Origin: Branchiostoma floridae
Lineage: Eukaryota > Chordata > Leptocardii > Amphioxiformes > Branchiostomatidae
NCBI RefSeq assembly: GCF_000003815.2
Contig: NC_049991.1
Location: 15,998,971 to 16,062,970 of the forward strand
Reading direction: 5' to 3'
DNA length: 64,000 nucleotides
The translations under genes were made by a program, and so were the position numbers. Below, one piece after another: positions 19,501 through 27,917 of this stretch (position 1 is the stretch's first letter; the number at the start of each line of letters is the position of its first letter). The notes under the pieces are model-generated. The model was not told where the DNA came from. It worked only from the letters and a program-made list of their open reading frames with translations, and ran no database searches.

Positions 19501-22500
19501 ATGTACTTTTTCCACCCACATTGCAGTTGGTGACATTATTCAGCGCTCCAAACTACTGTGGCGAGTTCGACAACGCGGGAGGTGCGATGATAGTGTCCGA
19601 AAACCTCACCTGCTCCTTCAGTATCTTACCGGTGAGTACAAGGGCCTGGTGACATCCGTCGGCCAGTAGATTCTCAAATCTATTGCCTTAAAGGACAAGG
19701 TAAGGTACGGTAGTCTGTACCAGACTGACTACGCTGGCCATTATAGGGAGAATAATTTGCCAGGGGAGGTTTGCTACCAGAGGAGTTGGTCAGCCGTGGA
19801 GGGGAGACCTGCACCAAAGTGTGGACTGACTCCCCTGCCCAATCGGCTGAAGTGGTAGGAGGGGGATGGACCCGGTCTTCTTCCAATACCTTGTCCTAGA
19901 CACAATAGTTTAACTACCCACTGCCCCTATGCCTCCAAAAGGGGGCGGAACTACCTATACTTTTTGAGCCAATCGTTGATGTGCTGTACAAAATTCCTGA
20001 TCACTGGTACAGAATAATTCAAGTGCAGGTCACCGAACTGGAATACAGACCCACAGACCGGGTGCGGACCCATCAATGTTCATTTGATAGCTTAATGACC
20101 CACGCACCATTGATTGGCTGCATAAAGTTCACGTAATGGCTAAAAGATGACCGGAAGTTTGTACCCTCTACCGCCCTTCCACTAGCTTCAACAGTAGACT
20201 ACCGTACATGTTGTCAGGCTCTCCACGGTACGTGATGGGATTTTCCAACCTGTGATGAGCTAACATCTTGCCACCAGGGATATGCCTTCCAGCCCAGCGA
20301 TCAAAAATGGCCGGAGATAACCTTAACCTGTTCACCTTAGGGTGCGGAGAGACTCTCTGATGTCCAAGCCAACTGTGGATCAATAATGCTCAGCAACAGC
20401 AAGGGATAGCTCACGAAGTAATCCTGTGGTTGGAATGGTGTGTTGGACAGCAACTGTTTCATTTGTCAGAGCGTGAAGTTTGATTGAGGAGAGGCACACC
20501 TCGATTGCGTTGAGGAACCCACAACACTTATTGAAAAGATTAGAGATGGCGTCCTTTCTGCCTGGTGTGAGTGGGTCAAAAACCATTCCTGCCAAACTGG
20601 GGTAACGAATATCCCGAGAAGCCTTCGTAACTCCCGCTTCCCCTGTTGAGCCTGTTAGCCCTCAAACTGAGCTAGTGAGCGCTGGTCTCAATCATTATGT
20701 ATCCAGGCTTAGGGAGAAGATATACTTTACAGTCCTATTCATATAACCCGTAATCATGGAGTGGCTTGCAATTGCGGGTCTTATTACGTGGTGAGTGACC
20801 ATTGAGTGGAGAAAGGAACAAGTCGCGTTACCTGACTGTACAGGAAGTGCTCCTTTATAGTGGTATCGTTGAGAGTGAGTTTAGATAGACATATTAAAGG
20901 GGGATTCCACTCATGAAACGGGTATTTTTCTCATATATATTACACTCTTCGGAATACAAATGCACCCGACTTTTGACTAAATCACCACGACTGACTTTTC
21001 GACCAAACACTGTTCTAAACCTATGAACCCCCATACGGGACCGCTTCCAATTCTCGGCTTTGACCTGACGTCACGGGTTTTCCAAATATGGGCATCCGCA
21101 CAGATCAAAACACGAAGCAGACGACAAAGTGTCATGGCGGACTCAGGCGGCCGTGGCTCAGACTAGTTCGACCCAGACTACATTATGCCATACGCATATG
21201 AGCCTGAACGTGATTCTGGAGAGTCGGAGAGTAGCGATGAGAACAATCAGCCTGCAGAAGCCTTTGCTGGGACCGCCACGCAACCAGAGGCGGCATGAGA
21301 CGGCCGGGATGAGACGGAGGGTTGCATGCATGCTAGCGCCAAGAAGCATATGGTGCAGATGCGATGACTACAACTGCAGCCTACAGTGTGTGAGTGTATG
21401 TGTTGCCACGACCTTCGTGAGCTGACAGATCCCGTGGACCACAGCAACCCCGATCGCAGCGGTATGGGCGTCGGGAGCGGCCGTAGCCAGCTGAAATGCG
21501 TCAAGCTACACCTGAGGAATTCCATCCCGTCTCATGAGGTCTGCACTGAAAACTGCACTTATATTATCTACAGTGACAAAATGACTTGGACTGGAAGATG
21601 TCAGGGAGCCATTGAGAAATAGGTAAATGTAGATTTTGTGTTTCTGTTCCATTTATTTTGCACGATCTGTGTGTGGGGTCGCACGATGGTGAGCTTACGG
21701 AAACATAGCCGCATGTGGTCGAATTTGTGACCTGTATATAAATCTATTAGCAGAACTCGAAATACTGTTTTTTTTGTATACCTGCACTGGTGCAGGTAAC
21801 ATTGGAAATTACCTGCACCAGACAAATTTTACCTGCACCATTCTGAACTTAGTAAGTATGAATCATACTAAAATTTTTCAGGAACCTTTTTTCACTACAG
21901 TATATTACCTGATATATTGTGCACCTAAAAGTTTTTAAACCTCGTTTCCGGTACTTTTTGTGTGAAGAAATGGACAGTTTTGTGATAACTTGTGCCACCA
22001 ATTTAGTGTGAAAAGTTGGAAATGTTTGGAGGGGGGGCTGTTAGGGCAATACCAAGATCTGAAAATAACCAGATTGAAACAAAATGGCAAGCAGTGTACT
22101 TGTTGCAATCTTTTAATACAAAAAAAATATAACAATACAATTTACATGCATTTTTGTTTCTCCCAGAATCTTACAACTGTCAGCGTACAGACAGTTTTCG
22201 TGCTGGGTCCACAAGAATCATCTTGGGAGATCAGTGTGGCGCGTGGTTCCAGCCTGTGCAGTCACCAAAATAAGACAGACTTATCCCTCTAAAGATGAGA
22301 CTATTACATAGGACATTTTCCTGTTAAGATATTTCGCCACCACATGTTCAATTGCTAAATTGATCTGACGTTAAACCAGAGAGTGATCTATAAATCTGTA
22401 TTCTACTAACTTTTTACTGTTAGGGTTATCCATTCTTGTTAAGCTTGGGGTTAGAATTAGAATTAGGGTGAGGCTTTACTGCTAAAATAAAACAATCTTG

Positions 22501-27917: not shown

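Follow-up and report, generated by a model that had tools for sequence, protein, structure and literature searches.

A 4.9-kb repeat family of Branchiostoma floridae: very probably a non-autonomous Kolobok transposon with a decayed P2X7-type gene

In the window (the whole 64,000-nucleotide stretch of Branchiostoma floridae DNA analysed here), a unit of 4.9 kb is bounded by TTAA and inverted repeats. An earlier note on this DNA saw in it two facing genes—one resembling the intracellular domain of the P2X7 receptor, the other a three-exon gene of 86 aa—carried as cargo by an element without a recognisable transposase. The locus raises the question of what kind of transposon this is, how it could have moved, and whether its two genes were picked up elsewhere or belong to the transposon itself.

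Element ends and genomic copies

The element spans 20894–25801 as one mobile unit of 4,908 bp with a TTAA target-site copy at each end (20894–20897 and 25798–25801). Counted with the TTAA, its arms (20894–20925 and 25770–25801) are 32 nt long and 88% complementary; inside the TTAA, the terminal inverted repeats (TIRs) are imperfect and comprise 28 bp, of which 24 are paired. The left repeat (20898–20925, plus strand) starts 5′-AG and the right one (25770–25797, minus strand) finishes CT-3′. We combined the 341 TTAA sites of the window into 20,233 pairs spaced 0.1–12 kb apart and scored the 28 bases inside each TTAA. The element ends ranked first, with a runner-up at 20, and the top pairs of 12 windows shuffled by dinucleotide scored 16–20, as against the 24 of the real sequence. 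This rank and the shuffled windows rule out that the TIRs were paired by chance. A terminal 19-mer, searched with up to three mismatches, occurred at two sites of the window only, the two element ends, where 0.05 sites were expected. Inside the element, a tandem repeat of about 205 bp (24395–24929) apparently varies in copy number among genomic copies.

A search of the host genome (513 Mb in 431 contigs; copy counts are lower bounds) recovered at least 21 left ends near-identical to that of the window, the window copy included (94–100%; 40 scored of 57 candidates), and at least 27 such right ends, those of the window copy and of the relative L030 included (92–100%; 40 scored of 178 candidates). 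Eighteen of the 20 other left ends were compared as a set, the remaining two being L030 and L047, both described below. All but one of these 18 copies align with the window element from end to end, at lengths of 3.9–5.1 kb and with internal gaps or deletions in L013, L016, L021 and L025; the exception, L024, matches over 250 bp only, within a gap-containing stretch. TTAA stands at both ends of 15 of the 17 end-to-end copies, and the 12-bp flanks printed for them all differ. The two exceptions are L021, with GTAA and TTAG, and L026, whose left end lies inside a gap. Among these 17 copies and the window copy, 120 of 153 pairs diverge by 0.6–3.2%, and the 33 pairs that involve L016 or L022 by 4.0–5.4%; the window copy differs from its nearest relative by 0.7%. 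The 4.9-kb sequences are a young mobile repeat family, of which we found no published account in the literature, a scope distinct from Repbase.

The earlier note had drawn the boundaries exactly, down to the TTAA on either side and the inverted repeats, and its view of a single TTAA/TIR mobile unit is borne out by the top-ranked ends together with the copies across the genome. It had also proposed to look for recurrence of the paired termini with TTAA, and they do recur, in these ≥21 left and ≥27 right ends and 17 end-to-end copies, 15 with TTAA on both sides. The outcome it named as speaking against mobility, termini that are unique or never paired, was looked for genome-wide and did not occur.

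More distantly similar ends, about 68–79% alike to the termini of the 4.9-kb family, delimit short TTAA-flanked, MITE-like relatives of 413–969 bp (L027:226–1194, on the reverse complement; L028:185–1032; L029:198–610). Three of these divergent left-end relatives were looked at as possible full-length partners and set aside, all being of this short size. Contig C345 was likewise rejected as a source of such a partner: within its first 10,000 bases (L047), the matching parts are another family member into which unrelated stretches are interposed. These 10,000 bases showed no transposase frame, and the contig is absent from the genome transposase matches listed.

A full-length relative and an internal deletion

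Kolobok elements of the Kol0 lineage encode a transposase and an accessory protein, KolX, which has the fold of the P2X7 cytoplasmic ballast domain, according to passages of Kojima and Bao (2022, PMC9587614). Among the copies compared, only L030 has the ends of the 4.9-kb family, in nearly the same form, together with KolX exons and a long transposase exon that are all open. It is a TTAA-flanked unit of 9,481 bp (L030:453–9933, contig C278). Its plus strand holds two open KolX exons, one of 168 aa counted from the first Met, the other of about 54 aa, both with a match to the Pfam family P2RX7_C (E 1.3e-5 and 1e-8). The two are presumably spliced together, and the other gene of L030 is probably spliced likewise. 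On the minus strand, facing KolX, lies an open transposase frame of 489 aa with smaller frames on either side.

Aligned with the window element, L030 matches in two blocks, one from 453 to 3512, in pieces, against element bases 1–2791, and the other from 7304 to 9933 against bases 2796–4908. This break in the alignment means that about 3.8 kb, the catalytic exon included, is missing from the 4.9-kb family; the junction maps approximately to 23684–23689 in the window. Nothing in the window element matches the catalytic exon of L030, and a six-frame Pfam search of the element (E up to 1) detected no DDE transposase with a C/DxxH motif. L030 and the window element are 97% alike at the right end, 90% over the last 1.4 kb and about 71–87% through much of the interior. 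By these percentages L030 is a relative of the 4.9-kb family, not its direct parent. The window element, without the catalytic exon, is a non-autonomous deletion derivative rather than an autonomous member of Kolobok.

The plus-strand gene of the element is a decayed KolX. Its second exon (22167–22311, plus strand) encodes the C-terminal part of the ballast domain: taken alone, it matches P2RX7_C (PF20478) over about 22168–22302 as a partial domain, scoring 25.6 bits where the cut-off is 23.5 (E 1.3e-5), and it is 79% alike to the second KolX exon of L030 (E 1.8e-29). The whole frame scores 20.9 bits. With all six frames searched at E up to 1, P2RX7_C was the one domain of the element; scanning the frames singly gave a few other matches, all under their family cut-offs. 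The first exon (21134–21622, plus strand, with ends set by homology) had no Pfam match as a separate piece, and the joined reading of both exons had no match in the PDB up to E 1. Comparison with the intact relative identified it as KolX (tblastn with L030 KolX: 53% over 123 aa, E 1.7e-33).

Measured against L030 KolX, the first exon of the window copy contains in-frame stops, and a second piece of the match lies in another frame. One stop is common to 17 of 18 copies, the remaining copy (L011) being frame-changed at that place, and none of the 18 has a first exon open in one frame. This shared stop and the lack of any open first exon indicate that KolX was already broken when the 4.9-kb family spread; an intact KolX was seemingly needless in the moving copy itself. 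The domain recognised by the earlier note is thus real, if partial, while stops and shifts of frame break up the gene around it. By homology to L030 KolX, it is the element's own accessory gene instead of foreign cargo.

On the opposite strand, the three exons reported as an 86-aa gene correspond to the ends of the transposase gene. The first-exon remnant (25555–25620, minus strand) is 91% alike to L030 9687–9752 (E 1.8e-10), and the last-exon remnant (23220–23387, minus strand), which carries a 4-bp insertion in the window copy, is 43% alike to the last exon of L030 (E 8.8e-11). The middle exon (24201–24240, minus strand) is a probable second-exon remnant and the weakest of the three; it is flanked by AG and GT in all 18 copies and has only short, non-significant matches to L030 7884–7970 (E 0.69 and 1.1). 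When the exons are joined, 16 of the 18 copies have a frame of one length, 270 bp (89 aa and the stop codon); 15 of these are open, and the sixteenth, L016, contains a stop. The other two are out of frame, L022 by a deletion and the window copy by its insertion, which brings it to 274 bp. The acceptor suited to the other copies lies at 23388–23390, and the length of 86 aa probably reflects the use of another acceptor, one bridging the 4-bp insertion.

An independent 86-aa gene was rejected on several grounds. Under loose splice rules, all 100 shuffled versions of the region (copy L015) admitted a three-exon model of at least 89 aa, and the longest such model was 216 aa in the real region against a mean of 151 aa in the shuffles; model length is therefore at chance level. 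The 89-aa reading had no Pfam match up to E 10 and nothing better than E 1.9 in the PDB, and its first and last exons are homologous to the transposase. Among the 16 copies of equal length, distinct variants comprise 29 non-synonymous changes (one of them the stop) and 9 synonymous ones, with an expected non-synonymous fraction of 0.72 (one-sided p 0.77), and so give no sign of purifying selection. A model can be written on the minus strand, as the earlier note had done, yet its exons are transposase ends left behind by the internal deletion.

These variant counts also bear on the idea that a small protein is still produced from the remaining exons and used by the element, perhaps as a repressor in the form of a truncated transposase. 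A spliced frame open in 15 of the 18 copies, together with the preserved splice dinucleotides, would agree with such a role. An unused frame, however, would mostly remain open at low divergence too; the variants are neutral, the frame is lost in the window copy and L022, and L016 carries a stop. We regard a retained small protein as very unlikely.

What we consider very probable instead is that the element is a non-autonomous Kolobok DNA transposon of Kol0-like architecture, shaped by internal deletion and KolX decay and mobilised in trans. The starting point would have been a complete element some 9.5 kb long, with KolX and transposase exons facing each other on opposite strands, from which an internal deletion took out the catalytic exon and in which KolX decayed. 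With the ends still intact, a transposase supplied in trans by an L030-like relative could cut such a copy out and paste it into a new TTAA, and repeated rounds of this trans mobilisation would have produced the present young family. The shared ends suggest that an L030-type transposase did move the 4.9-kb family, presumably by cut and paste.

The full-length relative provides a view of an insertion site before and after. L030 is inserted in a repeat of high copy number, of which five other copies (40 places scored of 2,692 candidates) were looked at; all five read flank–TTAA–flank with a single TTAA, one of them lacking 9 bp just past it. Such sites represent the pre-insertion state expected of a TTAA-duplicating transposon, the site being that of L030, not of the window copy.

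Superfamily assignment and related systems

Seven transposases of the host genome, that of L030 included, were aligned and share the motifs GDxRCDxPG, TDRHRG and HxxDxFH. The residues D, D and DxxH are kept in all seven, and the third catalytic acidic residue (E) was not located. None of the seven scored above the cut-off of any Pfam model; four gave sub-threshold DDE, MULE or Mutator matches in the motif region. A profile search of the PDB with the transposase found nothing, and a structure model of the transposase core was discarded as too poor for use (mean pLDDT 51.8). The THAP domain that is usual in Kolobok (Hikosaka and Konishi 2018, PMC6004289, in the parts covered here) did not show up when three frames of the L030 minus strand were searched. 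It is present (E 5.5e-13) in a sister element, L049:1986–8492, a complete-looking unit of 6,507 bp with TTAA and perfect 16-bp TIRs, in which a transposase frame and a KolX of a single exon accompany the THAP exon. This KolX matches P2RX7_C (E 1e-15) and residues 475–591 of P2X7 in the PDB (E 2.2e-4). The putative ballast feature of KolX is thus open in L030 and L049 by the P2RX7_C match, and in L049 also by comparison with solved P2X7. We assign these elements to Kolobok because of the motifs, this sister element and the pairing with KolX. A transposase nearly identical to that of L049 lies at about 20.68 Mb of C15, beside a KolX match. For a second KolX–transposase pair, L048, no convincing TTAA/TIR boundary emerged within 9.9 kb (best 7/16 among 15 pairs), where the flanks may be too short.

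The target site TTAA had left two superfamilies in play, Kolobok and piggyBac. PiggyBac elements insert at TTAA likewise, and their termini are of the CCY...GGG type. Those of the window element read AG...CT instead. The sister element carries a THAP domain, and the DxxH pattern of the L030 transposase is that of the hAT/P/MuDR/Kolobok/Dada group, as described in passages of Kojima and Bao (PMC9587614), from which the RR...YY termini that the ends 5′-AG...CT-3′ fit as a Kolobok feature are likewise taken. A piggyBac-type element is thus exceedingly improbable, and of the two names proposed from TTAA, Kolobok is the one that the ends, the transposase of L030 and KolX favour.

Against the Kol0 lineage as portrayed in those passages (PMC9587614), the window element is alike in its TTAA duplication, RR...YY termini and KolX with a P2X7-type ballast domain, and L030 adds the D, D, DxxH transposase on the strand opposite KolX. 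The window copy differs in being non-autonomous, without the catalytic exon and with KolX broken; the likeness to Kol0 is one of architecture, not of a tree. In Xenopus, Kolobok elements (XKol) and T2-MITE are described with TTAA, AG ends and an AGGRR motif in the parts of PMC6004289 covered here. TTAA and the terminal AGGRR are shared by the window element, which is also similar to one XKol with the ends AGGGGAACTATC.../AGGGGATCTATC... (PMC6004289), and the Xenopus non-autonomous relatives are, like it, presumed to have moved in trans. It departs from XKol and T2-MITE beyond the first bases, and at 4.9 kb with gene remnants it is not a short MITE.

Among animal ballast, ZCD and Nanor-like proteins, the (L/I/V)PSC(C/S)x3IRx2(F/Y)P motif (Rump et al. 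2020, PMC7016195) has a counterpart in the C-terminal VPxCxxxxIRxxYP of the window's second exon, and L030, L048 and L049, which are intact, contain the WCxCxxC motif. That paper describes animal ballast proteins, and the string 'transpos' is absent from its main text. The window version differs from these proteins in being transposon-borne and no longer coding.

P2X7-type domains and transposases across the host genome

Sixteen loci of the genome matched P2RX7_C when all 47 candidates were scored, the decayed 4.9-kb copies not being among them. An L030-type transposase lies within 10 kb of 11 of these 16 loci, convergent with the domain in all 11, where 0.018 would be expected by chance; leaving out L030 itself, the count is 10 of 15. 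The tie between P2X7-type domains and transposons that the earlier note had surmised therefore holds in the host genome, and had already appeared in print (PMC9587614, in the passages covered). The present analysis adds a family of non-autonomous copies, traces it to a deletion and supplies the count of 11 in 16.

The same pairing weighs on the reading of the element as a cargo transposon of the Pack type that captured two host genes, the P2X7-like and the 86-aa one. That reading draws on the resemblance of the P2X7-like domain to part of a host receptor, and on a minus-strand model whose AG and GT splice dinucleotides are intact in every one of the 18 copies. Yet in L030, KolX and the first and last of the minus-strand exons are arranged as in the window element, in order as well as orientation, around a transposase frame, and KolX and transposase recur as facing pairs at the 11 loci. 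Moreover, the cited passages of Kojima and Bao derive P2X7 from a fusion of a P2X4-like gene with KolX, so that the receptor tail comes from KolX and not the reverse (PMC9587614). Capture of host genes is accordingly an extremely unlikely origin, and the preferred reading remains a Kolobok derivative with its own KolX and transposase remnants.

Five P2RX7_C loci have no transposase match (C6:27768333, C17:7101891, C10:7166569, C6:26207315 and C308:346, the last near a contig end). They are candidates for solo or domesticated KolX genes, or for pairs whose partners have diverged. More broadly, nearly all free-standing genes for P2X7-type ballast domains in this genome might be, or recently have been, KolX genes of Kolobok elements, with recent domestications among the five; we put this forward tentatively, as a possibility that we think rather unlikely. 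If true, the genome would display a series, still in progress, that leads from a selfish gene to one of the host, the same sort of change by which the P2X7 receptor once acquired its tail. Open and broken KolX copies side by side in one genome are in any case a concrete example for the published transposon origin of the ballast domain, and they suggest checking predicted 'P2X7-like' genes of invertebrates for a nearby, facing Kolobok transposase. Among viral contigs searched for relatives of the P2X7-like exon, 7 pattern stretches turned up and 0 were confirmed.

As for the surroundings in the window, the element had been placed in the last intron of a PP1-like gene. It does lie downstream of a PP1-type exon, which ends at 19631 with a strong donor (CG/GTGAGT); a final exon of that gene was not found. 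PP1-like phosphatase exons occur at 12764–13142, around 13563 and up to 19631, with slightly unusual residues, and a gap of 100 N (13143–13242) directly follows the exon at 12764–13142. A 120-bp segment of the element (25005–25123) is 78% alike to 19718–19840, outside the element and beside the PP1-like exon; the segment common to both is probably a dispersed repeat. Further along, an open frame at 49633–50283 consists of an imperfect tandem protein repeat, beside a leucine-rich-repeat frame and another 100-N gap (49526–49625).
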